Positions 12,719-30,265 of a stretch of DNA of 41,701 bases are shown piece by piece (the stretch's first letter is position 1; each line of letters begins with the position of its first letter). Below the pieces are notes generated by a model. It searched no databases. It was not told where the DNA came from and saw nothing but the letters and a program-made list of their open reading frames with translations. The translations under genes were made by a program, and so were the position numbers. This DNA is from a virus. Where the stretch lies: positions 1 through 41,701 of the IMG/VR virus record IMGVR_UViG_3300025728_000006; one strand, written 5' to 3'.

Positions 12719-12769
12719 ACGTTACAGCCTGTAGGGAAAATGTCCAGCATATTCCCTATTACTCCCTAG
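12719..12769 (-). promoter_or_regulatory. Operator cluster and likely promoter upstream of HNH/terminase
   Basis: Three motif copies occur here: TAGGGAA at 12732-12738, TTCCCTA at 12752-12758 and CTCCCTA at 12762-12768. The last two are direct repeats exactly 10 bp apart. On the minus strand TGGACA (12741-12746) is followed directly by TTTTCCCTA and, after 16 bases, TAACGT (12719-12724). This gives a candidate -35/-10 with the operator in the spacer, arranged like the promoter at 27921-27949. Confidence 0.6.
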
Positions 12770-13194
12770 CGTGTCCCGTGGCTAAGCCATGGACCTACAC
12801 CGAGCATTGTGTGATCCATAGCTGCGTGTTCCCATCGCTTTGATGCCCTGGAGGCAAGCAGTGCGAGTATCCCGCAGACGATGCCGAGCGCCAGATAGAT
12901 GAACACGCCAGTCCACGAGTCAGGGAAGATGAACATGGCAACGATGAGAAGGCCCGAGGTGGAGCCGAGGGCCCAACTGGCTGTCTTGGACTTCTCTGCC
13001 TTGCGGTGGGCCGCGTCAGCCTTGCCGAATGAATCCAGTTGCTGAGCGAACACGGCGTTATGCCGGTCCAGATGCTCCTTCGCGGGGCCACTCTTACTGC
13101 TGGTGGGGACCTCCGGAGTGAAGTCCCAGCACACAAAGCATGTGTGGTCACCGAACTCACCGAACAGATCCTCAAACGTGTAGAAGCTACTCAT
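12766..13194 (-). CDS. Small membrane protein, two transmembrane segments
   Basis: The protein has 142 residues from ATG at 13194, overlapping the upstream stop (ATGA). The N-terminal part contains HTCFVCWDF and a charged helix. Two hydrophobic segments follow at about residues 78-97 (LGSTSGLLIVAMFIF) and 102-120 (GVFIYLALGIVCGILALLA), with a short Arg/Lys-rich loop after. It is probably an inner-membrane protein of unknown role. The stop lies inside the operator cluster. Confidence 0.72.
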   Translation of the reverse strand: MSSFYTFEDLFGEFGDHTCFVCWDFTPEVPTSSKSGPAKEHLDRHNAVFAQQLDSFGKADAAHRKAEKSKTASWALGSTSGLLIVAMFIFPDSWTGVFIYLALGIVCGILALLASRASKRWEHAAMDHTMLGVGPWLSHGTR

Positions 13195-13979
13195 GCTGCG
13201 ATCCTCATTCGTCGTTCTTCCTGTGCTGCGATTGATCGGTGCCAGAGGTTCCGCACCTTGCGGATCTGGTACACCGGGCGACCGTCGCCGTTGGTGCCGA
13301 GTGCGACGAGCTTGCCGCGGTTCACCCACTGGCGGATGGTTCCTTGCTTGAGTGCCTGGTTCGTTACTGGGTCGGAGAGGATACGGGACATTTCGGATGC
13401 TGTGGCCCAAGCCCTTATGGCTGCGTCAACGGCTCGTTCCCGCCATTCGGTCACGTCCCACACCACGTAGCAGGTTGGGCACTTCGCCTCCAGTTTCCCT
13501 TCCGGTGCGTAGACGGGCGTCTCACATGCCGCGCCTTCCATGACTGTGGGGCAGATACCGGCGAACACACGCCGCGCATTACGGTCCGTGGCCCGCCGGC
13601 AGTCGTTCAACGCGTCCCGGAGTTCCTGCTTCAACACTGGCGCCCAATCCTGCTCACGTACCTCCCGGATATGTGAGATCAGTACGTTCGCTGCCTTGAC
13701 GGCGTGCGGTTGGGTGTGGCCGATGGCCCGGGCCCATCCGGTGAGGATGACGTTGAGGGTGCGGCCGGTGTCGTAGGCGCGGGAGTTCGTTGGCTCCGAT
13801 GGGGACGAGTGTCCGGAGGTGCCCACGGAGCCGTTGCCGACGTCTTGGCGGGCAGCTGATGCCCAGATCGCTTCCACCGTTGATTCGACGTCTTGGAGGT
13901 CGGTTTCGAGTTGTTCTGTGCATCGGGTGCAGAGGTGCTGCCCGTCGCCTGTTACCCCGTCACATGCGCCACAAGTCAT
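13191..13979 (-). CDS. Zinc-ribbon plus helix-turn-helix DNA-binding protein
   Basis: The protein has 262 residues. The N-terminus MTCGACDGVTGDGQHLCTRC has four cysteines of a zinc knuckle. A second cysteine set (C around GICPTVMEGAACETP and KCPTCYVVW) lies mid-protein. The C-terminal part is a MerR-like helix-turn-helix: ILSDPVTNQALKQGTIRQWV, then GRPVYQIRKVRNL. Such proteins are common in actinophage early regions and may control late transcription. It lies last but one before the structural operon. Its ATG is preceded only by a -10-like box, so its mRNA may be leaderless. It ends RIAA. Confidence 0.78.
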   Translation of the reverse strand: MTCGACDGVTGDGQHLCTRCTEQLETDLQDVESTVEAIWASAARQDVGNGSVGTSGHSSPSEPTNSRAYDTGRTLNVILTGWARAIGHTQPHAVKAANVLISHIREVREQDWAPVLKQELRDALNDCRRATDRNARRVFAGICPTVMEGAACETPVYAPEGKLEAKCPTCYVVWDVTEWRERAVDAAIRAWATASEMSRILSDPVTNQALKQGTIRQWVNRGKLVALGTNGDGRPVYQIRKVRNLWHRSIAAQEERRMRIAA

Positions 13980-13985
13980 GCTTCT

Positions 13986-14017
13986 ATTTTAACAGCAAAA
14001 CTCCCTATAATTCCCTG
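13986..14017 (-). promoter_or_regulatory. Extended -10 promoter with paired operators
   Basis: On the minus strand TGTTAAAAT gives an extended -10 (TAAAAT at 13986-13991) six bases before the ATG at 13979, which would produce a leaderless mRNA. Two motif copies, TCCCTA at 14002 and TCCCTG at 14012, are spaced 10 bp and cover the -35 zone. Confidence 0.62.
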
Positions 14018-14040
14018 TTTTTGGGCATGTTGCAAGGGGT

Positions 14041-14178
14041 TTATGCTGCGAGTTGTTCGGCTCCGGTGCACCCGCATTTGCTTGCACCATCCGTGGTTCT
14101 GTCGTGGATCACTGCCCCGCACCTCAGCCAGGTTCCGTCCTTCCCGTGGTGGTGGCTGCAAGCTGGGCAGTAGTACAT
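14041..14178 (-). CDS. Small zinc-finger protein, 45 residues
   Basis: ATG at 14178 lies behind AAGGAG. The sequence begins MYYCPACSHHHGKDGTWLRC and ends with SKCGCTGAEQLAA, giving two CxxC/CxC metal-binding pairs with intervening histidines. Its stop is at the edge of the operator region. Function is unknown. It ends in LAA. Confidence 0.75.
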   Translation of the reverse strand: MYYCPACSHHHGKDGTWLRCGAVIHDRTTDGASKCGCTGAEQLAA

Positions 14179-14192
14179 GATGGCTCCTTCGC

Positions 14193-14420
14193 CTATCGCT
14201 GGGACTTCTTTGGCCGTGGTTTACGCTGGCTTTGCGCTTTCCTTGTGGCCTTGGGTGGGGGCTTGAGCCAACTCCGGTCGATGTGGTGGTGGCAGCGGAA
14301 TCCCACGCTGATGCGTTCTGCCCTTGCTTCACTGCCTCTGCAGTCCGGGCATGGGTAGTCGAGTTTCACCTCTGGCCGCTTTTCCAAGCACTCCGGGCAC
14401 CACCCGCAAATCATGTTCAC
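14193..14420 (-). CDS. Small Cys/His-rich protein with basic tail
   Basis: The protein has 75 residues, starting in an ATGA overlap with the upstream gene. MNMICGWCPECLEKRP and YPCPDCRG form two CxxC pairs, and FRCHHHID follows. The last 20 residues are Lys/Arg-rich (KATRKAQSQRKPRPKKSQR), suggesting nucleic-acid binding. No family is recognised. Confidence 0.7.
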   Translation of the reverse strand: MNMICGWCPECLEKRPEVKLDYPCPDCRGSEARAERISVGFRCHHHIDRSWLKPPPKATRKAQSQRKPRPKKSQR

Positions 14421-14647
14421 TGGTGGTCGTTCCTTTCGTACTCGTCCGCGAGTTCCTGCTCCGGGGCTGGGCCGAACGCGTAGTCCATAGCGTCTTCCTC
14501 GGTGTCGAAGTGGAACCCGTGACCGGCGATGTAGATCCCTCCCGGCTTCGCTGCCCGCCAGGCTGTGCCTTCACCGAAGATGCTGATCGCGGACGTCCGG
14601 ACCTTCTCCACATGCGGGACATCGCAGCGGCAATGGGTGACGCTCAT
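14417..14647 (-). CDS. Hypothetical protein, 76 residues
   Basis: It starts with ATG at 14647 and overlaps neighbours at both ends by four bases. It begins MSVTHCRCDVPHVEKVRTSA and has GGIYIAGHGFHFDTEEDAMDYAF, an alpha/beta pattern seen in small phage proteins of unknown role. The acidic end is EYERNDHQ. Confidence 0.68.
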   Translation of the reverse strand: MSVTHCRCDVPHVEKVRTSAISIFGEGTAWRAAKPGGIYIAGHGFHFDTEEDAMDYAFGPAPEQELADEYERNDHQ

Positions 14648-15042
14648 AGCTGCAGCTCCATCTGATTCGGGTCCGGTTCAGGCCTGCATTCTGGGTCGTC
14701 ATCTACTGTGACGCTGAAACGCACACCAGCGCGGCCTTTGTCCGGGTCGTCCCACCATGTGTAAATCGGCCTGCCCTCGTCCCATCCGCCAAGGTGACGC
14801 GTCCGCCAAACCCTTTCCCCCTGCTCTGCCACGTCAAGATGCCAGCCGCTGCTGTAGTACTCTGCCGTGACTTCGTCAGCCGCACGGAGTGCAACGGTTC
14901 GGGCGAAATCCACATCGTGCGTTCCGAAGACCACAATGTCGGTTATCTCATCCTCGTTGCCCCATGTCTCAGTGGTGATCTTCCGAGGCTGGTAAGCGGT
15001 CCCGTTCGGCCTAGTGATCGTGGGGAGCTTGATCCCGCTCAT
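14644..15042 (-). CDS. Hypothetical protein, 132 residues
   Basis: ATG at 15042 overlaps the upstream stop. The protein has strand-rich stretches (ITDIVVFGTHDVDFARTVAL, GRAGVRFSVTVDDDP) and aromatic residues around RPIYTWWDDPDKG. It ends QMELQL. I see no enzyme motif. The operon context is a chain of ATGA-coupled small genes. Confidence 0.67.
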   Translation of the reverse strand: MSGIKLPTITRPNGTAYQPRKITTETWGNEDEITDIVVFGTHDVDFARTVALRAADEVTAEYYSSGWHLDVAEQGERVWRTRHLGGWDEGRPIYTWWDDPDKGRAGVRFSVTVDDDPECRPEPDPNQMELQL

Positions 15043-15227
15043 GTCCGCCCCTCGATCCCGTGCGACTGGGCGTTGTGTTCAGCGGCCATGGTGGGCAGGT
15101 AGTCGGCGTACGTTGAGGTTTCGAGGGTCCAGCCCCACTCGATTCCACACTCCCAGCATTCGACCATGAGCCTCGGCTTGCCGTCGTCGTAGCTTGGCGG
15201 CACGTAGGGGACAATTCTGGCGCTCAT
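15039..15227 (-). CDS. Small hypothetical protein with a CxxC
   Basis: The protein has 62 residues with four-base overlaps at both ends. MSARIVPYVPPSYDDGKPRL is followed by VECWECGIEWGWTLE, a single CxxC in a Trp-rich context, and AAEHNAQSHGIE, where the two histidines could complete a zinc finger. Function is unknown. Confidence 0.68.
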   Translation of the reverse strand: MSARIVPYVPPSYDDGKPRLMVECWECGIEWGWTLETSTYADYLPTMAAEHNAQSHGIEGRT

Positions 15228-15565
15228 GCCTGCCCCTCATGAAGAACCGTCGCGGGGAGGGCGAGGCTGCTGGCTGGTGCCGATCCTTCGTAGCCGAAGC
15301 AGTATGCCCGCCCGTTGATGACGTTGGCGATGGTGCCCGCTGCCGTCCGTACAACAACCATGTGCAGCGCATCCAACTCGGCCACGGTGGTGATGGTGCG
15401 CGGCTTCCGGAACTGGTCAACGAACGCGAATAGCTCGGCCCAGTCCATAACAGCGTTCTCGCCGGTAACCTCCACGCCAACTCGCTGCGATGGGAGGTAT
15501 GCAGTGAGCTTGATGGACCCATGCCCGGCCTCGTGCTGGATGGTGAGCTGTTCCTGCTGGCTCAT
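15224..15565 (-). CDS. Hypothetical protein, 113 residues
   Basis: It starts at ATG 15565, coupled to its neighbours by ATGA overlaps. An alternating strand pattern (SIKLTAYLPSQRVGVEVTG, ALHMVVVRTAAGTIANVI) surrounds a helix MDWAELFAFVDQFR. It is probably a small alpha/beta protein. No family is recognised. Confidence 0.67.
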   Translation of the reverse strand: MSQQEQLTIQHEAGHGSIKLTAYLPSQRVGVEVTGENAVMDWAELFAFVDQFRKPRTITTVAELDALHMVVVRTAAGTIANVINGRAYCFGYEGSAPASSLALPATVLHEGQA

Positions 15566-15972
15566 TGTGTTCCTTCCTGGTTTGTGGTGTCAGCCCCCAA
15601 AGCGGCGGCAAGGGTCGTGACCGTCGGGCAGGGCCATTGCTCGCCGTCATCGATGCAGTGGTGGCCGCTGTACTTGTATCCGCTCGCCCATGGTTCAACA
15701 GCCCGGTAAGACTCGATGTGGTCTGCTGCGATCGCTTCAATGGCGGCGAGTAGGGCGGGTACTTTGTCGGCTAGGGCTTCGAGATGACTGACGTAGGACG
15801 GGTGTTTGACCGTTGTCCAATGGACCGCCCTCGGGTGACCGTTGCTAACGAGGGTTGTCTCCGCGTCAGCACACCGCGACTCTTGCCGTTGGTAGCTTCC
15901 GTCTTCGACCATCGACTCACGCCGTGACACGCGTTCCCGGATGGGTGCCAGGAGTGCCCGCAAATCAGTCAT
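15562..15972 (-). CDS. Hypothetical protein, 136 residues
   Basis: I chose ATG at 15972 (MTDLRALLAPIRERV) rather than the open frame up to 16044, because it overlaps the previous stop slightly and has AAAGGA upstream. The long N-terminal helix is followed by a conserved-looking block VSHLEALADKVPALLAAIE, then HHCIDDGEQWPCPTV. Similar short helical proteins with a C-terminal Cys/His segment are frequent in actinophage early regions. The role is unknown. Confidence 0.68.
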   Translation of the reverse strand: MTDLRALLAPIRERVSRRESMVEDGSYQRQESRCADAETTLVSNGHPRAVHWTTVKHPSYVSHLEALADKVPALLAAIEAIAADHIESYRAVEPWASGYKYSGHHCIDDGEQWPCPTVTTLAAALGADTTNQEGTQ

Positions 15973-16303
15973 CAGAGTGGTCCTTTGCTGCATCGGGAAC
16001 GTATCGGACTTGCTGGGCCATGGTGAAGTGAGTGGCTGGGTCATCGTTGGAGCGGACTGCGAACCAGTGCCCGTGCCATTCGCCTTCGTTGTCGCATCCC
16101 CAACCGTCCCATTGGGAGCAATTCTTGATGCGGGGGCGGTAGATCATGTGGTGCTCGGTTACCTCTACCTCGTATCCGGGGCACTTGCCGTGCGCCCATT
16201 CGTGAGCGGCCTCCACCTCGAACGGGTCCAAGTTGTGCCCCTGCATGAGAAGTGCCGCGCCTTCCTCGGTTTGGATGCTGGCGGGGTATGTCACCTTGCT
16301 CAT
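15965..16303 (-). CDS. Hypothetical protein, 112 residues
   Basis: ATG at 16303 overlaps the upstream stop. It is rich in His and Trp in the middle (AAHEWAHGKCPGYEVEV, WDGWGCDNEGEWHGHWFAV). The HEWAH stretch superficially resembles a metallopeptidase HExxH but has W at the position before the last residues (H-E-W-A-H), with no recognised family around it. I therefore make no enzymatic claim. Confidence 0.66.
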   Translation of the reverse strand: MSKVTYPASIQTEEGAALLMQGHNLDPFEVEAAHEWAHGKCPGYEVEVTEHHMIYRPRIKNCSQWDGWGCDNEGEWHGHWFAVRSNDDPATHFTMAQQVRYVPDAAKDHSDD

Positions 16304-16413
16304 TTGGTGGGTTCCTTGGTTGTGAGTAGTTGGGTGAGTTGTTCCGGGGGGAGGTTGCGGAGTTTCGCGGCAAGACGTTCCGGGAGAGTTTCGAGAGCTT
16401 CAGCGGTCGTCAT
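16300..16413 (-). CDS. Very small helical protein, 37 residues
   Basis: ATG at 16413 overlaps the upstream stop (ATGA), and its own stop overlaps the next start. It begins MTTAEALETLPERLAAKLRN and then PPEQLTQLLTTKEPTK, two amphipathic helices. The unbroken coupling on both sides supports coding status despite its size. Confidence 0.66.
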   Translation of the reverse strand: MTTAEALETLPERLAAKLRNLPPEQLTQLLTTKEPTK

Positions 16414-16880
16414 GCCACTGCCTCCGCTGGGGCCTTGGTATACCCGTCGCCGTAGCAAGTGCGGCAGAAGTCAGCGCCCCGATAACAACGCGGTGCCCGG
16501 CAACGTCCACCTGAGCGGCGGCCAGTTCCCTTGCACTTGCCGCATTCCGTTCCGCGCCCGGTTGAGTCGCAGGCCTTGCAGGCGATCCCAGCGTTGAGTA
16601 CGCGCCTCATCTCGGCGTAGGTCCGTGTCGCCATCCCGTCAGTGCGGGTGTCCATCTCGTGGCGTAGGAGCTCCACGAGGTTGTCCCATTCGGGCAGCAG
16701 CCGGTCCCACTGGATGGAGCGGCCAGCCATGCGGGATCTCAACTGGTCAGTGGTCAGTTGTCGTCCCTCGCAGTACTTGATGCAGCGGAGCAAGTCGCTT
16801 GGATCGTGTGGGTGGTCAGTCCCTCCGCCAGCTATTGCTTGGGCTGACAGCCCCATCTGGGAACCCCAACCCCAGTTCAT
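16410..16880 (-). CDS. Two-domain protein: phage helical domain plus DnaJ-type zinc repeats
   Basis: The protein has 156 residues from ATG at 16880 (MNWGWGSQMGLS). Residues 1-85 resemble the product of 23661-24029: W-x-x-G-x-x-GLS-x-x-AI, then DPSDLLRC, then R-x-x-M-x-x-x-S-x-x-W-x-x-L and WDNLVELLRHE. Residues 98-150 carry CKACDSTGRG, CGKCKGTGRR, a Cys pair and CRTCYGDGY, close to the CxxCxGxG zinc repeats of DnaJ. It is probably a protein- or nucleic-acid-binding adapter. The fusion of these two parts is notable. Confidence 0.75.
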   Translation of the reverse strand: MNWGWGSQMGLSAQAIAGGGTDHPHDPSDLLRCIKYCEGRQLTTDQLRSRMAGRSIQWDRLLPEWDNLVELLRHEMDTRTDGMATRTYAEMRRVLNAGIACKACDSTGRGTECGKCKGTGRRSGGRCRAPRCYRGADFCRTCYGDGYTKAPAEAVA

Positions 16881-17011
16881 TCGTCTGCCCCGCAACGGCA
16901 GTGTTCTTCCTCTTCCGGGAACGCGGCCAGGATCTCCCGCACCTCCGTATGAGTCACAACCCCGTGACCACTGTTCGCACGGTCCTCAAGGTGTTTACGT
17001 AACGCGCTCAT
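16877..17011 (-). CDS. Small hypothetical protein, 44 residues
   Basis: ATG at 17011 overlaps the stop of the ASCH gene, and its stop overlaps the next start. It begins MSALRKHLEDRANSGHGVVT and then reads HTEVREILAAFPEEEEHC, ending CRCGADE. It has a helical N-terminus and a C-terminal Cys cluster (CRC). Function is unknown. Confidence 0.68.
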   Translation of the reverse strand: MSALRKHLEDRANSGHGVVTHTEVREILAAFPEEEEHCRCGADE

Positions 17012-17400
17012 GCCTTCACGTCCTCAAGGTTCCAGAGGCCCAGCTTTCCTTTGGCGGGGAACGGGACCTCAACGGGCTTCGGGTCTGCGAGCACCCAGTG
17101 ATGGTGGCCAGGCATTGCCCATTCGGAGCATGTGCCGCTCTTGCTGAACTTGTGGCAGTCGTCCGCGTGGTGGCAGTCGGTGACGTCCACTGTGCCGATG
17201 ACCATGCCAGCCAGAAACTCGTCAAATGAGTCCGGCAGTGACTGGATGCCGATAGTGTCAATTGCTTCATCCGCCCAGCCCTTGCCAGCGTGGATGTACA
17301 GCCTTCCGCGGTGCTTCGTCGGACGGGAACGGTTCTCAACGTCCTTGCCGCCGTGGATGATGGCCCAAGCCCATGGCTGCTTTACAGTGAGCGCTTTCAT
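17008..17400 (-). CDS. ASCH-domain protein
   Basis: The protein has 130 residues, ATG at 17400. It has the ASCH hallmarks: MKALTVKQPWAWAIIHGGKD, VENRSRPTKHRG, LYIHAGKGW and GMVIGTVDVTDC, with a closing KLGLWNLEDV. ASCH proteins have a PUA-like RNA-binding barrel. Some are ribonucleases or act on modified nucleosides (for example the EOLA and YqfB groups). The phage role could be RNA processing or takeover of translation, but this is unproven. A His/Cys insert (CHHADDCHKFSKSGTC) may bind metal. Confidence 0.85.
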   Translation of the reverse strand: MKALTVKQPWAWAIIHGGKDVENRSRPTKHRGRLYIHAGKGWADEAIDTIGIQSLPDSFDEFLAGMVIGTVDVTDCHHADDCHKFSKSGTCSEWAMPGHHHWVLADPKPVEVPFPAKGKLGLWNLEDVKA

Positions 17401-17531
17401 GCTGCTTTCTCCTGCTCCACGAGTTGTTTCGCGTCCCGCACAGCCTCACGCAACACCGTGTAGTTCTCTGGGGTTTCCGGGATAGCCTCCACAGCAGCGA
17501 GCACTGTCGCCGCCGTCATCCGGGCACTCAC
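17397..17531 (-). CDS. Small helical protein, 44 residues
   Basis: GTG at 17531 overlaps the upstream stop (GTGA), and ATGA coupling follows. It begins MSARMTAATVLAAVEAIPET and continues PENYTVLREAVRDAKQLVEQ, ending EKAA. It is one long helix pair, all coupled, with no family recognised. The last two residues are Ala-Ala, as in many early genes here. Confidence 0.67.
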   Translation of the reverse strand: MSARMTAATVLAAVEAIPETPENYTVLREAVRDAKQLVEQEKAA

Positions 17532-17728
17532 GACTGCACCTCAACCGGCTGCATAGCCAGTTCATCCGTGACGGTGTGATGCCACTCGGTGACGCCACGC
17601 CAGATAACCGTGGCATCAAGCCCAGCCGCACGCATGTTCTTCGCTACCAACTCGGCCGCGTCACGGTCCTTGGAAGCATCACAACCCCACGGGCTCTTGA
17701 CGCCCCACTCGGTCTTGAAGTCGCTCAT
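17528..17728 (-). CDS. Hypothetical protein, 66 residues
   Basis: ATG at 17728 (MSDFKTEWGVKSPWGCDASK) overlaps the upstream stop; I rejected the longer open frame. AAELVAKNMRAAGLDATVIWRG forms a helix-strand pattern, and the end is WHHTVTDELAMQPVEVQS. Similar small proteins with a W-G-V-K start occur in Arthrobacter-like phages. The role is unknown. Confidence 0.67.
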   Translation of the reverse strand: MSDFKTEWGVKSPWGCDASKDRDAAELVAKNMRAAGLDATVIWRGVTEWHHTVTDELAMQPVEVQS

Positions 17729-18024
17729 GCCGCGTCCTCCAGTCGGCACTCATACTGCAGACCCTCCGGGGGCACACCACGACGACGACGCGCCGCCATG
17801 TACGCCTCCACCCCAGCAAGATTGTTCTGGTGCTGCGCTTCCTTCGCATCGAAAGACGCCTGCATAGGCTTCCCGCGGCGCTTCCGGCCACTGCACGTAG
17901 CACACAGACCACCAGTGCCCCGCGCCCGCGTGTCCGGGTAATCCTGCAGGGTGGCTTTCGATGAACGGGTGGGGACCCTGCAGTCAGGGTTCGCGCACGG
18001 GACGATACCTCTTGACGGCCTCAT
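17725..18024 (-). CDS. Small zinc-binding, basic protein
   Basis: The protein has 99 residues, ATG at 18024, in an ATGA overlap. CANPDCRVPTRSSKATLQ and GGLCATCSGRKRRGKP supply two Cys pairs, with a strongly basic loop between them and the C-terminal helix EAYMAARRRRGVPPEGLQ. It is likely a nucleic-acid-binding zinc protein. It ends LEDAA. Confidence 0.7.
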   Translation of the reverse strand: MRPSRGIVPCANPDCRVPTRSSKATLQDYPDTRARGTGGLCATCSGRKRRGKPMQASFDAKEAQHQNNLAGVEAYMAARRRRGVPPEGLQYECRLEDAA

Positions 18025-18488: not shown

Positions 18489-18506
18489 CGGGAGCCCTCA
18501 TCTTCC

Positions 18507-18557
18507 GGTATCGCCGCCCGGACCCTTCACAGTCCGGGCGGCTTCTTTGTCGATACC
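18507..18557 (-). other. Structured 5' leader of the third early unit
   Basis: An outer stem GGTATCG/CGATACC (18507-18513 with 18551-18557) encloses a perfect 11-bp stem GCCGCCCGGAC/GTCCGGGCGGC (18513-18523 with 18532-18542), leaving a one-sided bulge. It lies about 20 bases before the 18488 start. It could control translation or attenuation of the operon. Confidence 0.7.
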
Positions 18558-18574
18558 TTCAGCCTACTCTGAGT

Positions 18575-18653
18575 TTCCCTATTTTTCCAGCTAATTCCCT
18601 ATTACAACCCCAATTTCTTTATCCAAAGAGGCCATGGTAGGGAAACTAGGGAA
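18575..18653 (-). promoter_or_regulatory. Operator cluster before the third early unit
   Basis: TTCCCTA occurs at 18575-18581 and 18595-18601, exactly 20 bp apart with a degenerate copy (TTCCAG) half-way. TAGGGAA occurs at 18638-18644 and 18647-18653, 9 bp apart. On the minus strand TTGTAA about 17 bases before AAATAG is a possible promoter inside the cluster. One copy overlaps the rusA stop. Confidence 0.62.
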
Positions 18654-19032: not shown

Positions 19033-19210
19033 CCTGAGCCACCACCACAGCCTCCAACGCCTGCCACGCCTCAGGAGCCCGCCCAGCAACCCACACCAAC
19101 CTGCGCAGCAACTCCCGATCATCCACACCCAGCTTGGCCGCCGCCCGCTCCAGCATCGCCTCATGCACAATGTCAAACCGGTGAACCCGCGTCCCCTTAC
19201 GACGACTCAT
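19025..19210 (-). CDS. Small helical protein, 61 residues
   Basis: ATG at 19210 overlaps the helicase-like gene stop (ATGA). MSRRKGTRVHRFDIVHEAML is followed by ERAAAKLGVDDRELLRRLVW, giving a basic tail and two helices. It resembles small accessory proteins found next to phage helicases. A role as loader or cofactor is only a guess. Confidence 0.68.
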   Translation of the reverse strand: MSRRKGTRVHRFDIVHEAMLERAAAKLGVDDRELLRRLVWVAGRAPEAWQALEAVVVAQDA

Positions 19211-22982: not shown

Positions 22983-22989
22983 AGCAGAG

Positions 22990-23045: not shown

Positions 23046-23054
23046 GTTTGTTCG

Positions 23055-23157
23055 GATAGGAAAAGTGTACCCGATTTCTCCCTAAATTTCCCTATCAAAT
23101 ACCTGTTTGAGCCGTGTCGTGTACTCACATCGGGGAACTCGACTACTTGGTTCCCTA
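23055..23157 (-). promoter_or_regulatory. Operator cluster before the second early unit
   Basis: CTCCCTA (23078-23084) and TTCCCTA (23088-23094) are direct repeats exactly 10 bp apart. TTCCCTA recurs at 23151-23157 within GTAATAGGGAA (minus), the same 11-mer as at 12752 and 18595. A degenerate ATAGGAAAA lies at 23055. The cluster lies between the SSB terminator and the next operon, but no convincing -35/-10 pair stands out. Confidence 0.6.
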
Positions 23158-23173
23158 TTACTGGTACTCACAC

Positions 23174-23204
23174 AAAAAGGCCGGGCACCCGAAGGTACCC
23201 GGCC
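23174..23204 (-). terminator. Strong intrinsic terminator after ssb
   Basis: On the minus strand an 11-bp stem GGCCGGGTACC / GGTGCCCGGCC is closed by a UUCG tetraloop and followed by TTTTTGTG. It lies 14 bases behind the SSB stop and ends the first early transcription unit. Confidence 0.93.
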
Positions 23205-23217
23205 CCAGTGGGACTGC

Positions 23218-23658
23218 TTAGAACGGCGGTTCGGAGTCCGGACCGTTGCCCCAACTGCCAGGATCCTGCTGGCCGCCGGTGTTGCCCCACGCATCCGTGG
23301 CCGCCGTCGTACCCTTCGCACGGTTCCCACCGTTACGTGATGGCAGGATGTCCGCACCCTTCACGTTCACATCTAGCGACATGCCGGGCGTGCCGTCCTT
23401 GGCTTCGTACTTGCGGGAGTAGAACTCTCCGTAGATCGTGACCCTTGAACCCTTGGTGAGCTTGTCGTGGTAGAACTCAGCAAGCTCACCCCAGATGGCG
23501 CAGTTGAGCCACTGCTCAGCCAAGGTCTCCCACTCGCCGTTCTCCAGCTTCTTGGACTTGGAGTCAGCCACTGAAAAGTTCAGGACTGCCCGGCCTGAGG
23601 GCGTGAACCTAAGCTCCGCGTCCTTGCCCACGTTGCCGGTGAATTTGATCTCTGCCAT
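23218..23658 (-). CDS. ssb: Single-stranded DNA-binding protein
   Basis: The protein has 146 residues from ATG at 23658 (MAEIKFTGNVGKDAELRFTP); the frame is open upstream but the family starts here. The OB fold is seen in LNFSVADSKSKKLENGEWET, QWLNCAIWGELAEFYHDKL, TKGSRVTIYGEFYSRKYE and SLDVNVKGADI. A Gly/Gln-rich linker leads to an acidic C-terminal tip DSEPPF, which in this family contacts partner proteins. It coats single-stranded DNA in replication and recombination together with the exonuclease and RecT. Confidence 0.94.
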   Translation of the reverse strand: MAEIKFTGNVGKDAELRFTPSGRAVLNFSVADSKSKKLENGEWETLAEQWLNCAIWGELAEFYHDKLTKGSRVTIYGEFYSRKYEAKDGTPGMSLDVNVKGADILPSRNGGNRAKGTTAATDAWGNTGGQQDPGSWGNGPDSEPPF

Positions 23659-23660
23659 AT

Positions 23661-24029: not shown

Positions 24030-24373
24030 GCTGCTGCTGCTTTCTGTTTGGTTTCGGTCCGGTTGTAGTCGTTATCGATGAGGTTCCATGTGCGGGTGGC
24101 CAGGTCGTAGAACGGGACTTGCTCCGGGGTTTCCCAGCGTTGCAGCTTCCACCCGTACTCACGGGCTATGTCAGCGGTGACGGCGTCGGCCTCGATCATG
24201 CCGTTGATGTAGGAGCACATGACGAGCACGTTCGAGGGGCGGTCCAACAGTTTGGATCCGCCCATCCCGCGGTTGATGCGGTGCTGTGGGACGAGAGTGT
24301 CCTCCCGCCCCACACACCCGCACACGCAATGCAGATCCCGCGCAAGGTAAAGAGAGAACTGGCGGCCGTTCAC
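24026..24373 (-). CDS. HNH-like nuclease (NinG/Rap-like pattern)
   Basis: The protein has 115 residues, ATG at 24373. CVCGCVGREDTLVPQHRINR, GMGGSKLLDRPSNVLVMC and SYINGMIEAD form a Cys pair, an HR-x-x-RGMGG turn and an SN-x-L-x-x-C...N-x-x-x-E motif, as in HNH-type recombination nucleases. The last canonical H is replaced by the N/E positions. It follows recT directly, which fits a junction or flap endonuclease. It ends in AAAA. Confidence 0.7.
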   Translation of the reverse strand: MNGRQFSLYLARDLHCVCGCVGREDTLVPQHRINRGMGGSKLLDRPSNVLVMCSYINGMIEADAVTADIAREYGWKLQRWETPEQVPFYDLATRTWNLIDNDYNRTETKQKAAAA

Positions 24374-25170: not shown

Positions 25171-26104
25171 CTTCCTTGGCCTTCTTTCGGAGGAACGTGC
25201 GGGTGGGTGCGCCAGTCTTCAAGTACTTGGCGTGGAGGTCTGGGTGGTCTGCGGCGAACGTCTTGTCATCGAACTTGGTTGTTCCCTTGCGTGGCCGCCA
25301 GGTGAAGAGTGTTTGCCCGTCGTGTGTGAGTTCTACGGCGTCTTTCATGGCTATCTGCAGTTGCAGTTTCACGGCGTCCAGCTTGGTGTTGATCTCGACA
25401 GCTTCTGCCTGCATGAGTCCGTAGGTTCCCCAGAGCTCGTACAGTGCTTCGCCGCCTTCGATCTTCACTTCTGGATCGCCGGGCCAGAGGGTGGATGCGT
25501 CATCGAGCGTGATCGGTTCCGGGGCGACGCCGGCCAGTACGTGGTTCTCCCAGAACTGCCGGGTGAGGCGGATGAGCATTTCGTGGAACTCTGGGTCCGC
25601 GGGCACTTTGTAGAACTCCGGGGTGTTGCCGCCATGCAGGACCACGAGGTATCCGTATGGTGCGCCCATGATGAGGATCTGCTGCTGGATCTGGATCTGG
25701 TAGTTCAACGGGATGCCTTCCTTCCAGGCTTCCACCATGAACGCGTCCGATGACTTGATCTCCAGCGGAACTACAACGTCGCCCTCGATGATCGTCCGGT
25801 CCGGGGTGGCCAGCAGCCACGGGAACTCTTCCGAACGGATCAAGCCCGGGGACTTCTGCACGTTGAGGCCCTTGCGTTCCCTCACCCACTGGGCGATAGG
25901 CTCCTCCAGCCGGTGCCCCCAGTCCTGGCGGTCACTCATGGTGTCATCCACGGAGTCAGAGAGCTTATCCATGTAGACACTTAGCGGAGTGCCCCACTTG
26001 GACAGGCCCAACACGGCCGCCGAGTCGGACGCGCCAAGTCCCTGCTTACGGAGACGCAACCAGTGCTCCGTGTCTGGTGCCGGGTCAAGCACTGTGTACG
26101 TCAT
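25163..26104 (-). CDS. YqaJ-type recombination exonuclease
   Basis: The protein has 313 residues. ATG at 26104 (MTYTVLDPAPDTEHWLRLRK) was chosen for its ATGA overlap. The lambda-exonuclease/YqaJ core reads QGLGASDSAAVLGLSKWGTP, HRLEEPIAQWVRERKGL, LLATPDRTII, VPLEIKSSD (catalytic D-x-E-x-K) and QIQIQQQILIMG. It degrades 5' strands of duplex ends to expose single strands for RecT. The pair forms a Red-like recombination module. Confidence 0.93.
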   Translation of the reverse strand: MTYTVLDPAPDTEHWLRLRKQGLGASDSAAVLGLSKWGTPLSVYMDKLSDSVDDTMSDRQDWGHRLEEPIAQWVRERKGLNVQKSPGLIRSEEFPWLLATPDRTIIEGDVVVPLEIKSSDAFMVEAWKEGIPLNYQIQIQQQILIMGAPYGYLVVLHGGNTPEFYKVPADPEFHEMLIRLTRQFWENHVLAGVAPEPITLDDASTLWPGDPEVKIEGGEALYELWGTYGLMQAEAVEINTKLDAVKLQLQIAMKDAVELTHDGQTLFTWRPRKGTTKFDDKTFAADHPDLHAKYLKTGAPTRTFLRKKAKEDV

Positions 26105-26289
26105 CGTGTGAGCTCCTGCTTCTCTTCCCACGCGTTCAAGCGGGCAATGGATGGACTGATGTAGCCGTAATCAGGCGTGGGAAGGTCCGCGTCGGACGGT
26201 TCCCAATCGGGTTCGATGATCGAGTCGCAGTCTTCGCAGACGCCCCTGTAGATGTCCTCGTGTGTGCACTCTTCGGGATCGCGGCTCAT
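26101..26289 (-). CDS. Small Cys-containing protein, 62 residues
   Basis: ATG at 26289 with ATGA overlaps on both sides. MSRDPEECTHEDIYRGVCED-CDSII carries a C-x2-H-x7-C-x2-C pattern that could bind zinc. The end SPSIARLNAWEEKQELTR is helical. Function is unknown. Confidence 0.68.
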   Translation of the reverse strand: MSRDPEECTHEDIYRGVCEDCDSIIEPDWEPSDADLPTPDYGYISPSIARLNAWEEKQELTR

Positions 26290-26429
26290 GACAGGTCCTC
26301 GCAGTCACGGCAGCCCGAGCCTTGCTTGTGGAGTGTGTGCAGGGCGGCGCGGTTCTCGTTCCGGGACCACAGAATGGCAACGCCGAAACCGATGCACAGG
26401 ACCAGGCAGAGAACAAAGAAGCCGTTCAT
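26286..26429 (-). CDS. Small single-pass membrane protein, 47 residues
   Basis: ATG at 26429 overlaps the upstream stop, and ATGA coupling follows. MNGFFVLCLVLCIGFGVAIL is a single transmembrane segment, followed by a charged tail with CRDCEDLS. It resembles short phage membrane proteins of unknown function. Confidence 0.72.
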   Translation of the reverse strand: MNGFFVLCLVLCIGFGVAILWSRNENRAALHTLHKQGSGCRDCEDLS

Positions 26430-26830
26430 GCCAGTGCCAGCTTCAGGGATTCAAGCGTTGACTCGAAGTAGGTTTCCCGGAAGTGGGCCGTCATCAGGAC
26501 GTAATCCACGGATTCTTTGATGCGGTCCTGGATGTTGTCCAGCAACCACTGGCTGTTGTTCACGGACCCGGAAGGGCTGATGTTCAGTGTTGGGTGGGTG
26601 CCGCGTTCGAGCTTCTCCAGTTCGCGGATCGTCATGACCAAGTGATCCAGTGCGGTCCACTGCACGTCAGCGTCAACCATGTAGGACAGCTTGCGTGCGA
26701 GTGTCTGAAGTTCATCCTCGGTGTAGTCGGCAGGGCCTTCGGCGGCGAATGAACCGGACACGTAGCGCACGATGTCGTGGGCCATGGTCTTGGAGAGGAT
26801 CAGTGGGCTATTCTGAGAGGCAGTCATCAT
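26426..26830 (-). CDS. Hypothetical protein, 134 residues
   Basis: Either of two adjacent ATG codons (26830 or 26827) could start it; AAAGGAAAA precedes them. It is an all-helical pattern (HDIVRYVSGSFAAEGPADYT, ELQTLARKLSYMVDADVQWT, DHLVMTIRELEKLERG) with an Asn/Ser-rich turn. No family is recognised. It ends in LALA. Confidence 0.68.
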   Translation of the reverse strand: MMTASQNSPLILSKTMAHDIVRYVSGSFAAEGPADYTEDELQTLARKLSYMVDADVQWTALDHLVMTIRELEKLERGTHPTLNISPSGSVNNSQWLLDNIQDRIKESVDYVLMTAHFRETYFESTLESLKLALA

Positions 26831-26890
26831 TTTCCTTTGTCGGTGTTGGTGGCGGTTTGGGAGGGTCCGGTGGCTGCCGGGCCCTCTCTC

Positions 26891-27163
26891 TTATTCCCAG
26901 ACGCCTACAGGCCGGGAAGGGATCTCATACAGGGTGTTCGGTGGGATGTGGGTGGAAGCCCACTTGGTGGCTTGGCCTTCAGTGTTGAAGCCAATCTCCT
27001 CAATGACCGTCCCTCGGCGGATCGCGTACTCCCTGCCGGCGGCCTTGAAGTAACCAAGATCAGCGACAACCTGGGACACTGCTGCGGCTACGACAGTGGC
27101 GAAGTCTTCGTGTTCCGCTACCTCGGTGATCGCTTCCCGGATGGCATCTTCTAGCTCGCTCAT
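26891..27163 (-). CDS. Hypothetical protein, 90 residues
   Basis: ATG at 27163 (MSELEDAIREAITEVAEHED) overlaps the excisionase-like stop by ATGA, which decides the start. The N-terminal helices are followed by a strand-rich part, EYAIRRGTVIEEIGFNTEGQ and IPPNTLYEIPSRPVGVWE. Function is unknown. About 60 bases with an imperfect GAGGG..CCCTC hairpin follow it. Confidence 0.68.
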   Translation of the reverse strand: MSELEDAIREAITEVAEHEDFATVVAAAVSQVVADLGYFKAAGREYAIRRGTVIEEIGFNTEGQATKWASTHIPPNTLYEIPSRPVGVWE

Positions 27164-27360
27164 GAGCATGCCCGTGGTTGCTTGTCCCGCCAGCGGTCAA
27201 CATCAGCCCACGGGATCCGGATCGGTGAGTTACGGGCACCGGCCCCTGCCTTGTAAGCGCCGGGGAAGTCTCCGGAGCGGGCCATGATGCGAACAGTGAC
27301 CGGGTTGAGTTGCAGGTAGTCAGCTACTTGCGGGACCGTTGCGTCTCCTTCGCGGCTCAC
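27160..27360 (-). CDS. Excisionase-like MerR-type helix-turn-helix protein
   Basis: The protein has 66 residues from GTG at 27360, overlapping the upstream stop (GTGA). The open frame upstream to 27477 lacks coding character. TVPQVADYLQLNPVTVRIMA is a helix-turn-helix, and IRIPWADVDRWRDKQ is the wing and terminal helix of the excisionase/MerR-like domain used to direct prophage excision. The gene lies three positions after the divergent promoter, as expected for a lytic-phase excisionase. It could instead be a transcription regulator. Confidence 0.77.
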   Translation of the reverse strand: MSREGDATVPQVADYLQLNPVTVRIMARSGDFPGAYKAGAGARNSPIRIPWADVDRWRDKQPRACS

Positions 27361-27623
27361 GCTGCAGCCCTCCAGACACGGCACGCTCCACCCGAACGGC
27401 CTGGACGGCGTGACTGGTGATAGCCGATCGGTTTGATCAGACCGTCCTTGTAAGCGTTCCGGAACACCGGACCCCATTTATTCGGGTGGGGAGGGTTGCG
27501 CAGGTCCGCTTTCTCAGTGAGGTCGTAAGCGTCGAATGGCTGTCCGGCGGCTGCGACCTTCGCCAAAGCTTCCCGGGCGTCGTCATCCCAAGTGAGATCT
27601 TCTAGAACCATCGCCTGAGTCAT
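27357..27623 (-). CDS. Small winged-helix-like phage protein
   Basis: The protein has 88 residues, ATG at 27623. The sequence VAAAGQPFDAYDLTEKADLR, NPPHPNKWGPVFRNAYKDG and LIKPIGYHQSRRPGRSGGAC is a pattern common to small phage proteins. Helices are followed by G-L-I and R-x-G-x-x-x-x-V-W, like a winged helix. It is possibly DNA binding. It ends WRAAA. Confidence 0.68.
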   Translation of the reverse strand: MTQAMVLEDLTWDDDAREALAKVAAAGQPFDAYDLTEKADLRNPPHPNKWGPVFRNAYKDGLIKPIGYHQSRRPGRSGGACRVWRAAA

Positions 27624-27913
27624 TTCTTCCCTCCCTTGACGGCCTTCAATCGGGGACGGCGGATAGTTGTCGGGTGGACACCCAGGAACTCTGCTGCTGC
27701 GTTGAGCTTCGGGTCGGTGAGTGCCCTTTGTCCGGATTCGATCTGAGAAATGGATCCCGGGTTAGCGAAACCAATGGCCGTGGCTAGCTCGTCCATGGTC
27801 ACGCCCTTGTTGAGTCGCGCCTCACGCAGGCAAGCGCCTGTCACGACCTTGTCGTCATCGGCGGGGTAGAGGTAGTTAGGTCCCCGCCTGTTGGTGTTTG
27901 TCGGTGTGTTCAC
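27620..27913 (-). CDS. Cro-like XRE-family regulator
   Basis: The protein has 97 residues with GTG at 27913. The helix-turn-helix ACLREARLNKGVTMDELATA-IGFANPGSISQIESGQRAL is typical XRE, with a basic tail RPRLKAVKGGKK. It is divergent from the repressor, so it is the probable Cro-type switch protein. The start context ATGTGAAC equals that of the repressor. A good promoter places transcription start at the GTG itself, so translation would be leaderless. Confidence 0.85.
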   Translation of the reverse strand: MNTPTNTNRRGPNYLYPADDDKVVTGACLREARLNKGVTMDELATAIGFANPGSISQIESGQRALTDPKLNAAAEFLGVHPTTIRRPRLKAVKGGKK

Positions 27914-27920
27914 ATGGACA

Positions 27921-27949
27921 ACAATACGGAAAAATAGGGAAAGTGTCTA
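27921..27949 (-). promoter_or_regulatory. Early leftward promoter with operator in the spacer
   Basis: On the minus strand TAGACA (27944-27949), 17 bases, TATTGT (27921-27926), then seven bases to the GTG at 27913. The spacer holds TTTCCCTA (TAGGGAA at 27935-27941), and a near copy TACGGA lies 10 bp away. A repressor bound here would block RNA polymerase directly. Confidence 0.72.
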
Positions 27950-28003
27950 CCCAGTAAACGGGAGCAATGCCCAAACGGTGCCCGAGTCGACAGGGAAAAC
28001 CTG

Positions 28004-28083
28004 AATTACATATGCGTAATTACAGGGCATGTTTCCCCTAGAAACGGCCAATCATGGGTAGTTTCGCTAGTTGATATTCCCTA
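28004..28083. promoter_or_regulatory. Switch-region operators between cro-like gene and repressor
   Basis: A palindrome AATTAC-n6-GTAATT spans 28004-28021, TTCCCCTA lies at 28033, and TTCCCTA at 28077-28083, about 22 bases before the repressor start. TAGTTT (28059-28064) with TACTTT (28082-28087) is a weak candidate repressor promoter overlapping the last copy. The palindrome may bind a second regulator, such as the Cro-like protein. Confidence 0.55.
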
Positions 28084-28105
28084 CTTTTTCGCGCACGCTG
28101 AGCAT

Positions 28106-28552
28106 GTGAACGACATAGAAGCACTCAACCTAATCGGTGGCTTCGTAGCCTCCGCACGCGTCCGAGCAGGCCTAACTCAAGTAGAGCTTTCAGAGCAAGC
28201 CGGGATCGACGTCAAGACATTCCGCACACTCGAAAGCGGTACCCGGCTATTGCATGAGAAGAAGCTACAAGCCGTGGAGAAAGTTCTAGGCTGGCGGTCA
28301 TCTTCCATCCGCCAACTCTGGGAAACCCGCGCCTACATCGACCCGACTAAGACCACCGTTGATGACATGTACTCGCAGCCTGGGCAGGAGTCATGGTCAG
28401 ATCTAGCTTCGGAATCCAAAGGTCCCGTCACAAAGGCGTCACAACTGACGAATGAAGAGCTTTTGATGGAGCTTCAATATCGATTCCGTAACTTAGAGAT
28501 TCAAGTAACTCGCCTAAAAGATGCAGAAAATGGGGCAAGCACAGACCACTGA
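28106..28552 (+). CDS. Immunity repressor, XRE family
   Basis: The protein has 148 residues with a GTG start and no evident ribosome binding site. The helix-turn-helix (residues about 10-65) reads FVASARVRAGLTQVELSEQA-GIDVKTFRTLESGTRLL. The C-terminal part LTNEELLMELQYRFRNLEIQ-VTRLKDAE is a probable coiled-coil dimerisation segment. There is no LexA-type protease domain. It lies between the divergent early promoter and the integrase, the usual place of an actinophage repressor, and is the best candidate to bind the dispersed TAGGGAA motif. One copy lies before it and two at its end. Confidence 0.85.
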   Translation: MNDIEALNLIGGFVASARVRAGLTQVELSEQAGIDVKTFRTLESGTRLLHEKKLQAVEKVLGWRSSSIRQLWETRAYIDPTKTTVDDMYSQPGQESWSDLASESKGPVTKASQLTNEELLMELQYRFRNLEIQVTRLKDAENGASTDH

Positions 28553-28556
28553 CAAA

Positions 28557-28573
28557 AAGGGAAAGATAGGGAA
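28557..28573 (+). promoter_or_regulatory. Paired operator behind the repressor
   Basis: AAGGGAA (28557-28563) and TAGGGAA (28567-28573) are direct repeats exactly 10 bp apart, starting five bases after the repressor stop. The neighbour sequence GTCTGTAC resembles that next to the copies at 27935 and 23055. It could control the downstream plus-strand genes. Confidence 0.6.
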
Positions 28574-28639
28574 AGTCTGTACAGTGGTGTGCGGCACCAC
28601 AAGGTGGCCATCGTTAGACAAATTAGGGGAATCACCGCG

Positions 28640-28957
28640 TTGGACACCAAGCCCGCAACCAGCACCGACACCAACTCCACCTCGAAGGCATCCGGACAGC
28701 CACCCAGCCGCATGCACCAGATGGGACACGACTACTACAACACCACATGCCCGGAACACTGTGACCACGCAGACGGCTGGGCAACCCGCCTCATCACACC
28801 CCGCGCCTTCCTGAACGCAGCACGCCAGCACTACACAATCGAGGCCGTCGCCCGGGCACTCTGGGCCACCCCAGGCATCGTGAAGCAGTACATCGACAAC
28901 CTGAACGATGAAGATTGGACCACCATGACTCGTCTCGTCGGACACGAACTGACCTAG
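28640..28957 (+). CDS. ImmA/IrrE-like protein, truncated and with altered active site (predicted)
   Basis: The protein has 105 residues if TTG at 28640 is used (AGGGGA nine bases upstream); the frame is open further left. After a Ser/Thr-rich start comes MHQMGHDYYNTTCPEHCDHA, then DGWATRLITPRAFLNAARQH, and IEAVARALWATPGIVKQYID. The last two match the C-terminal part of ImmA/IrrE metallopeptidases (x-A-D-x-W-A-x-R-L-I-T, then A-x-x-L-x-V-T-P-x-x-V). The HExxH motif appears as HQMGH, and the third ligand position seems to be Cys. The N-terminal half of the family is absent. In known systems ImmA cleaves the adjacent repressor. Here it may be an inactive or non-proteolytic partner. Confidence 0.6.
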   Translation: MDTKPATSTDTNSTSKASGQPPSRMHQMGHDYYNTTCPEHCDHADGWATRLITPRAFLNAARQHYTIEAVARALWATPGIVKQYIDNLNDEDWTTMTRLVGHELT

Positions 28958-28958
28958 C

Positions 28959-30092
28959 ATGTCTCGCGTGGATGACCGATGGGTCCGGAAAGACAAGACC
29001 CGCACACCGCTCTACGGCAAAGGCAAACGCTGGCAAGCCGTATGGACCGAGAATGGCACCGAGAAGAAGCAGTCCTTCAAAGCCAAGGATGCCGCCCTAG
29101 CGCACCTGACCGACATTGACCACCGGCAACGCTCCGGAACCTACACGTCCTCAGAACTGGGTAGGGTGCATGTGGGGGAGCTGCTGGATCCGTGGATGGA
29201 AACGCTCGTTCATCTGGAGCAGTCCACTATGGCCGCCACCCGCTCCGACGTTCGCGCCACCATCAGGCCCTACTGGGCGAAGAAAATCGTTGCCGACATC
29301 ACCCGAGCCGACGTTCAGCAATGGGTGACCGAGATGGACAAAGCACCACGGACCGTGGAAACCATTTACGGCCGGTTCCGGAACTTCCTGAACTGGTGCG
29401 TCACGGAAGGCAGGATCAAAGCCAGCCCAGCGGCGAAGATCAACCTGCCCCAAGGCCATAAACGGGAACACATCTTCCTCACAGTCGGACAAGTCCAGGA
29501 CCTCACAGAAGCCATCGGCGTCTTCTATGAGGACCTCATATGGTTCCTCGCCACAACCGGGCTCAGGTTCGGTGAAGCAGCCGAGCTCCGCGTAAGGGAT
29601 CTCGATCTGCCACGCCGGCGAATCACGGTGTCACGGTCTGTCACGGACGTGGGCGGGAAGATGGTTGTGGGGCCGCCGAAGGGCAGGAAGTCCCGGTCCG
29701 TTCCTATGACGTCATTCATGGTGGGGAGGATCGCCGCACGCGTGAAGGGGAAGCCACGTGACGCGTTGGTGTTCCCGGCCCAGCGGGGCGGGTGGATACG
29801 GTCCAACAACTTCAAACGACGCACCTATGACCCTGCGGTGAAGGCTGCGAAGCTCCCGGCGGATCTGTGGGTGCACGATTTGAGGCACACTGCAGCGTCG
29901 TTGGCTGTGGCGTCCGGGGCGTCCGTGAAGTCCATCCAGCGGATGCTGGGGCACGCCTCCGCGGCGCTCACACTGGACATTTACGCTGGGTTGTTCGATC
30001 AGGACCTGGACGCCGTCGCGGACAAGATGGACTCCATGCTGTCTCTCGTCCCGAATCCGTTCCTCTCAGAATCCTCCCTGAAGGCCGGATAA
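28959..30092 (+). CDS. int: Tyrosine integrase
   Basis: The protein has 377 residues, ATG at 28959. It has an N-terminal arm-binding domain (KRWQAVWTENGTEKKQSFKA), a core-binding helical domain (STMAATRSDVRATIRPYWAK), and a catalytic domain with R203 (TTGLRFGEAAEL), K241, HDLRH at 306-310, GH at 331-332 and nucleophile Y342. Spacing is normal and complete, so it should be active. It recombines attP, 22 bases downstream, with a host tRNA gene. Its 3' end carries arm-type repeats. Confidence 0.95.
   Translation: MSRVDDRWVRKDKTRTPLYGKGKRWQAVWTENGTEKKQSFKAKDAALAHLTDIDHRQRSGTYTSSELGRVHVGELLDPWMETLVHLEQSTMAATRSDVRATIRPYWAKKIVADITRADVQQWVTEMDKAPRTVETIYGRFRNFLNWCVTEGRIKASPAAKINLPQGHKREHIFLTVGQVQDLTEAIGVFYEDLIWFLATTGLRFGEAAELRVRDLDLPRRRITVSRSVTDVGGKMVVGPPKGRKSRSVPMTSFMVGRIAARVKGKPRDALVFPAQRGGWIRSNNFKRRTYDPAVKAAKLPADLWVHDLRHTAASLAVASGASVKSIQRMLGHASAALTLDIYAGLFDQDLDAVADKMDSMLSLVPNPFLSESSLKAG
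30062..30081 (+). repeat. Integrase arm-type repeats, left arm
   Basis: CCTCTCAGAAT followed by CCTCCCTGA is a direct repeat with an 11-bp period, inside the end of int and about 35 bp left of the attP core. The 15-mer at 30062-30076 recurs exactly at 30316-30330 on the other side of the core. Confidence 0.7.
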
Positions 30093-30114
30093 TCCGCTCC
30101 AGCACTGGCCGAAG

Positions 30115-30164
30115 CGCCACGTTTACACCGTGGATGTCATCGGTTCGATCCCGGTAGGACCCAC
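30115..30164 (+). other. attP: attP core: 3' part of a tRNA-Val(TAC) gene
   Basis: The sequence is the anticodon arm CCACG-TTTACAC-CGTGG (30117-30133, anticodon TAC), variable loop ATGTC, T arm ATCGG-TTCGATC-CCGGT and acceptor 3' strand AGGACCC-A-CCA ending at 30164. There is no matching 5' half upstream, so it is not a whole tRNA. After integration it would rebuild the host tRNA gene. The expected target is a tRNA-Val whose acceptor 5' strand is GGGTCCT. Confidence 0.88.
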
Positions 30165-30167
30165 CAT

Positions 30168-30174
30168 TTCCCTA
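30168..30174. promoter_or_regulatory. Operator motif next to attP
   Basis: TTCCCTA lies three bases past the tRNA CCA end. It may let the repressor or another protein affect integration or transcription entering from the host side. Confidence 0.45.
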
Positions 30175-30175
30175 G

Positions 30176-30216
30176 CCCGCCATTCTGGAGTAAATCTCCG
30201 GAATGGCGGGCTTTTT
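30176..30216 (+). terminator. Intrinsic terminator after int/attP
   Basis: A 15-bp stem CCCGCCATTCTGGAG / CTCCGGAATGGCGGG with loop TAAAT is followed by CTTTTT. It ends the repressor-integrase transcript. Confidence 0.93.
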
Positions 30217-30258
30217 GGTGCCCTCTCTGGCGTGTCACTCCGGGAATCTGCGGGGAGT

Positions 30259-30265
30259 TTCCCTA
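30259..30265. promoter_or_regulatory. Operator motif upstream of the 48-residue gene
   Basis: TTCCCTA forms the centre of the short palindrome TCCCTAGGGA, between the terminator and the right arm repeats. It may regulate the 48-residue gene at 30354. Confidence 0.45.

Follow-up and report, generated by a model that had tools for sequence, protein, structure and literature searches.

The heptamer TAGGGAA is scattered through gaps and gene ends across the early and integrase regions of the window, by which we mean the whole 41,701-nucleotide stretch of DNA analyzed here, from a temperate virus of a soil bacterium. We give a probability of about 0.68 to the reading that each copy is a half-site in an operator regulon spanning the prophage, whose reader, an XRE-family repressor encoded at 28106, would act mainly by blocking promoters. 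Since the tags lie at the same places in relatives that carry the same repressor gene, they probably mark where the repressor switches the virus off. The distribution of the word, its tandem period, the corresponding sites and their -10 phase in relatives, and the co-occurrence with the repressor were all computed.

Genome setting

Short megablast matches of the window, an IMG/VR virus record, were mainly to Arthrobacter phages. A stretch of 38 bp (37635-37672) is identical to an unannotated gap in the Arthrobacter phages Hestia and Tiff81. The early unit is oriented leftward, extending from 27913 to 12766, and to its right lie the 148-residue XRE protein (28106), a conserved 107-residue protein (28634), a tyrosine integrase and then an attP-like tRNA 3' end. 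This last sequence, at approximately 30110-30165 and adjoining the integrase, resembles a tRNA 3' half with anticodon loop TTTACAC, possibly of tRNA-Val, and is likely the attP core. The gene between repressor and integrase (28634-28957) encodes a conserved small protein with Cys/His; a weak TripleJ homologue is annotated 'metallo-protease', and no HEXXH was seen in the window protein. Genes relevant to the regulon are as follows, with G001 and G003 denoting related viral contigs:

18646 to about 19056 (-), gene overlapped by the 18647 heptamer copy and easily missed by gene callers; its counterpart in relative G005 is 72% identical
27160..27360 (-), excisionase-like HTH_17 protein (Xis), considered and disfavoured as reader
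27620..27913 (-), Cro-like XRE protein and possible second reader, encoded by the gene that opens the leftward early unit; Pfam HTH_3, 39-47% identical to the cro-position gene of G003 and G001
28106..28552 (+), XRE-family repressor, likely reader; 148 aa, HTH residues 1-73, disordered linker, C-terminal helix 116-142, Pfam HTH_3
28959..30092 (+), tyrosine integrase; Pfam Phage_integrase

Noncoding bias of the heptamer

TAGGGAA, counted with its complement TTCCCTA, was found 13 times in the window compared to 1.7 expected, and none of 100 dinucleotide shuffles (mean 1.72, maximum 6) reached this count. The original prediction had placed 13 exact copies in gaps or touching a stop codon, and all were recovered in place by exact match. 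With our gene calls every copy was noncoding (13/13), in a genome where noncoding sequence makes up 8.4% of the DNA (binomial p=1e-14). The comparison of coding and noncoding 7-mer counts that had been proposed as a check gave TAGGGAA the strongest noncoding bias among ~7,000 7-mers, and the bias held with an independent gene caller (12 noncoding, 1 coding, p=2e-11). The single coding call is the 18647 copy, which shares bases with the stop codon of a real gene; the other 12 copies are fully intergenic. The extended sequence GTAATAGGGAA is indeed identical at 12752, 18595 and 23151, and the one-mismatch copies noted earlier are real in gaps, with those at 12762, 23078, 27925 and 28557 each spaced by exactly 10 bp from a perfect copy that points the same way. 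Three features go beyond that earlier description: the 10-bp tandem repeat structure, -10 boxes at a fixed phase, and a further operator at 14001-14017. As a separate observation, TCGATGA occurs 25 times genome-wide in the window compared to 5.5 expected.

Heptamers repeated once per helical turn

When the count of units having five or more of 7 matches at +/-10 bp was compared with flank shuffles, the heptamer proved to be repeated head-to-tail with a 10-bp period in the window (p=0.001), independently in G003 (p=0.0005) and in G001 (p=0.032). The repeating element is therefore a half-site of seven bases that recurs at roughly each helix turn, and the bases flanking it carry little information. 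Inverted pairs also occur (12732/12752 in the window, 13530/13551 in G003), and orientation relative to transcription is mixed, with nine syn and five anti heptamers in the early unit and two syn and three anti in the right unit. The sites, and the predicted promoter of the cro-position gene, are:

12732..12768 (both strands), operator block upstream of the HNH gene 12067-12552; a TAGGGAA (+) forms an inverted pair with the TAGGGAA (-) at 12752, and TAGGGAG (-) follows 10 bp on at 12762
14001..14017 (-), operator CAGGGAA-N3-TAGGGAG; -10 TAAAAT (13991-13986) 6 nt before the ATG at 13979
18575..18601 (-), operator TAGGGAA-N3-GCTGGAA-N3-TAGGGAA (period 10) downstream of helicase; -10 TAGGCT at 18561-18566
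18638..18653 (+), TAGGGAA tandem pair 9 bp apart, the second copy overlapping the stop codon of the gene 18646 to about 19056 (-)
23078..23094 (-), operator TAGGGAA-N3-TAGGGAG downstream of ssb; -10 TACACT at 23064-23069
23151..23157 (-), second unit downstream of ssb, exact match, 63 bp from 23088
27921..27949 (-), predicted leaderless cro promoter; -35 TAGACA (27949-27944), 17-bp spacer, -10 TATTGT (27926-27921), 7 nt before the GTG at 27913
27925..27941 (+), cro operator TACGGAA-N3-TAGGGAA, 10-bp tandem in the predicted cro promoter spacer
28077..28083 (-), candidate autoregulatory operator upstream of the repressor, exact match; unit adjoins a GATATT -10-like hexamer, a putative promoter assignment
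28557..28573 (+), operator AAGGGAA-N3-TAGGGAA in the gap that separates gene 28634 from the repressor; TACAGT follows at 28580-28585
30168..30174 (-), lone lower-confidence unit beside a terminator hairpin and the tRNA-like attP end
30259..30265 (-), lone lower-confidence unit, exact match, downstream of integrase

Sites at predicted promoters

Heptamers at several sites occupy a predicted promoter's spacer, and there a TAnnnT -10 box begins 15-16 nt downstream of the unit start. Among the sites listed over three records, TANNNT fell exactly 15 nt from the unit start in six cases, compared to zero to three at other offsets. This phasing is significant in G003, but it is weak when the 13 exact copies of the window are tested by themselves (p=0.17 at +15; p=0.13 over the range +13 to +16). 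The sites thus appear to overlap core promoters, a pattern that is weak when the window's exact copies are taken alone. Predicted promoters bearing sites were found at cro and at 14.0, 18.57, 23.07 and 28.58 kb, while several other units have none: no obvious promoter was seen at 30168, 30259, 23151 or 18638/18647.

The cro promoter is the clearest case. Its predicted form is TAGACA-N17-TATTGT in the window, TTGCAA-N17-TAAAGT in G003 and TTGCAA-N17-TAATGT in G001, with the repeats in the spacer and the -10 box followed by 7 nt to the start codon. The predicted promoters of the HTH gene o13191 take the same leaderless form in three phages. A TANNNT box 6-7 nt before the start codon was found at only two of the 63 genes of G003, cro and o13191, both of which have operators. 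A generic sigma-70 scan of the region returned three promoter-like sites compared to 4.1 in shuffles, one of the three being the window's cro promoter, found independently. GC-rich hairpins were also observed between internal operator-promoters and the first downstream gene (12624-12663 and 18513-18542 in the window, 13590-13621 in G003), and these are possible leader hairpins or attenuators.

Conservation of operator positions and co-occurrence with the repressor

A RecT search gave 21 viral contigs, 11 of which were examined whole or nearly whole (G008 without its last 2 kb). Homologues of the 28106 repressor were found in three of these 11: G003 (41% identical) and G001 and G002 (38%). T[AG]GGGAA was enriched in noncoding DNA in all four records with a repressor homologue, the window included (p 1.9e-8, 3.8e-9, 9.7e-6 and 2.8e-4), compared to none of 14 records where no homologue was found. 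G001 and G002 are ~98.7% identical, so the four enriched records represent three lineages; the 14 include some fragments, with G004 and G005 ending before the repressor locus, as well as six Arthrobacter/Glutamicibacter phages that have 0-3 TAGGGAA copies, about the chance level. The comparison of related phages, another check proposed at the outset, thus showed the motif tracking the repressor. The presence of the motif only where a repressor homologue was found supports both the network of operators suggested by the original prediction and its choice of the 28106 protein as likely reader. Among the further searches, single-sequence queries for repressor relatives found no matches in viral contigs, genome contigs or the phages collection, a repressor profile (A1) found none in genome contigs and only the three known records in viral contigs, and queries with the Cro-like protein and gene 28634 found no matches.

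Operators occupy five corresponding loci in relatives whose repressors are 38-41% identical: the cro start, the gap between the repressor and gene 28634, downstream of ssb, downstream of helicase, and upstream of o13191 (window and G003; G001 and G005 where covered). The cro operator has counterparts at 2701-2717 in G003 and 5682-5698 in G001, and the 28557-28573 operator keeps its position and orientation in G003 (2043-2059) and G001 (5036-5052), with TANNNT at +14. Downstream of ssb, the 23078-23094 operator aligns with 8613-8628 of G003 and its -10 TAGAAT, and the spacing to the second unit is 63 bp in the window and 64 bp in G003 (units 8558 and 8622). The predicted promoter at 18575-18601 has counterparts in G003 (13551, TAGACT) and G005 (about 9695, TAGACT), and the 14001-14017 operator upstream of o13191 has counterparts in G003 (15807-15823) and G005.

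In the more general scheme proposed below, relatives would keep these positions and change the word, the forms being TAGGGAAA/T, TRGGGAAC, TGCGGAAC and CGGTAAG. G004 and G005, whose RecT is ~90% identical to that of the window, have other words, CGGTAAG in G004 and TGCGGAA/GGAACACT in G005. In G004, direct repeats of CGGTAAG 20-21 bp apart (6577-6692) lie at the ssb-downstream locus, in the place of the window's TAGGGAA operators, which looks like an operator-specificity switch.

Candidate readers of the sites

The AlphaFold model of the 28106 protein shows a standard XRE HTH (pLDDT ~90) and a C-terminal part made of a low-confidence linker and one helix; it gives no indication of how direct repeats would be bound. 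Co-occurrence alone does not single out this protein, since the Cro-like protein and gene 28634 are distributed nearly as the repressor is. That the Cro-like protein (27620) is the main reader, or that the two proteins use the sites jointly in the manner of lambda CI and Cro, would fit this common distribution and the location of the best-conserved operator in the Cro-like gene's own promoter. The recognition helices point the other way: that of the repressor is near-invariant (DVKTFRTLE / DLKTLRSLE / DLKTLRTLE), whereas that of the Cro-like protein reads NPGSISQIE in the window, THVGVTHME in G003 and THVMVARIE in G001, although G003 and G001 have the same operator word. A network read by Cro only would also explain less simply the operator that follows the repressor gene. 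We regard this alternative as unlikely; sharing of sites by the Cro-like protein alongside the repressor is quite possible. Very improbable is a reading in which the recombination-directionality factor (Xis, 27160) binds head-to-tail on helix-turn repeats like phage 186 Apl at pR-pL and att. RDF repeat geometry has been described as the same (PMC7498355) and two units lie near attP, but the attP-proximal units are without tandem partners and the majority of sites are at internal early promoters. Moreover, site identity does not follow the Xis recognition helix: G004 retains this recognition region (HPETVRIMARSGDFP) yet lacks noncoding T[AG]GGGAA, with CGGTAAG repeats at the same ssb-downstream locus. 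The near-invariant repressor helix, the variable Cro helix and the Xis helix unchanged in motif-less G004 together favour the repressor as reader.

With the repressor as reader, we infer its binding, the arrangement of its protomers and the blocking of RNA polymerase, at promoters that are themselves predicted. The 28106 protein would bind heptamers head-to-tail with one protomer per helical turn, matching the 10-bp period. At the leftward cro promoter, and at no fewer than three internal early promoters (~23.07 kb, downstream of ssb; ~18.57 kb, downstream of helicase; ~14.0 kb, last early gene), it would cover the -35/spacer region, so that lytic transcription is off in the lysogen. The sites that precede the repressor gene and immediately follow it may adjust how much repressor is made, and likewise the output of the 28634-integrase unit.

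Alternative modes of action and comparison with known systems

The original prediction likened the sites to the asymmetric stoperators of mycobacteriophage L5, where a repressor on dispersed sites stops elongating RNA polymerase within the early operon. In L5 and other cluster A phages, single 13-14-bp asymmetric sites, predominantly syn-oriented and mostly promoter-free, are bound by a monomer with an HTH and a Stoperator domain, without cooperativity (PMC6550527, PMC9283540). The window resembles these phages as a temperate actinobacteriophage with many dispersed sites in gaps or gene ends (13/13) and a site at the repressor locus, and the motif likewise differs between relatives with diverged repressors (PMC6550527, PMC9283540). 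Its units at 18638/18647, 23151, 30168 and 30259, which lack a clear promoter, also fit transcript blocking. The differences are larger: the window has a 7-bp unit in 10-bp direct repeats rather than a single long site, orientation in the early unit is 9 syn to 5 anti, the main sites stand at a fixed distance from -10 boxes, and the reader is an unrelated small XRE protein without the HTH plus Stoperator-domain architecture, with no mycobacteriophage repressor among the sequence or solved-structure matches listed for the 28106 profile. We consider L5-type action improbable, and because orientation, site length and repressor fold depart from the L5 pattern and several sites are embedded in predicted promoters, we do not apply the term 'stoperator' here.

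Activation instead of repression, with CII-like binding turning on early promoters that have poor -35 hexamers, would account for the weak -35 hexamers occupied by repeats at the internal promoters, and 10-bp direct repeats over the -35 are the arrangement of lambda CII. This seems decidedly improbable, as units also lie in the spacer beside the -10 box and take the opposite orientation at cro, which has a recognisable -35; moreover, Actinobacteria in general show little conservation of -35 boxes. A host-protein site, or a chance or mobile repeat unrelated to immunity, has the shortness of the word in its favour and nothing else, and is scarcely credible given that six Arthrobacter/Glutamicibacter phages are at chance level and that enrichment tracks the repressor. 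Two further candidates were set aside by inspection: an ECF/SigR-type promoter with GGGAAC as -35, which the window lacks and in which GTT lies 10-13 nt away instead of 16-18, and a cluster-K-type start-associated sequence (SAS), as most units are not at ribosome-binding positions.

To our knowledge, few prophage-wide operator networks have been worked out. XRE repressors normally read palindromes, and dispersed operators for one repressor are conserved inverted repeats in Streptomyces phage phiC31 and single 17-bp asymmetric sequences for c1 of phage P1. The network favoured here, with the 28106 repressor on heptamer repeats, would be a variant of the dispersed-operator scheme of L5 and SPbeta that adds the recognition of direct repeats seen elsewhere in P2 C and RDFs. 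In SPbeta, the SPBRE element is repeated in ~10 promoter regions of one prophage and bound by a master repressor, MrpR, which unlike the window's XRE protein has a tyrosine-recombinase fold; the parts of that account available to us do not describe a 7-bp helically phased repeat for SPBRE (PMC10516654). P2 C is likewise a small HTH repressor reading two direct repeats (O1/O2) around the -10 region, but as a stable dimer at one operator region, with 8-bp repeats 22 bp apart centre to centre (PMC4752584). Apl of phage 186 and other RDFs bind direct repeats one helix turn apart, also at lytic promoters, but belong to the excisionase family and have sites confined to pR-pL and att (PMC7498355).

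Confirmation would give non-mycobacterial actinophages a repressor network whose operators are helically phased direct repeats, and operator positions kept across divergent repressors would make repressor-operator co-evolution and immunity switching directly testable. We tentatively propose, at less than even odds, a more general scheme in which a small XRE immunity repressor bound head-to-tail, one protomer per turn, on heptamers in either orientation controls most early promoters, with words that change between relatives creating heteroimmune specificities outside cluster A. Arthrobacter phage immunity groups are predicted to be readable from intergenic k-mers, since the phages Hum25 and Kumotta show motifs of their own. 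In Hum25, a different dispersed near-palindromic motif (around GTTCCATATGGAAC) was observed at 24032, 26601, 30977, 35189, 36110, 40378 and 41980, possibly another dispersed operator set; its CATATGG word has 13 strand-wise matches at seven places, none coding by our gene caller, with 26601 within annotated gp40. In Kumotta, the palindromic GTAGCTAC occurs in pairs 12 bp apart near the integrase (23171-23412).
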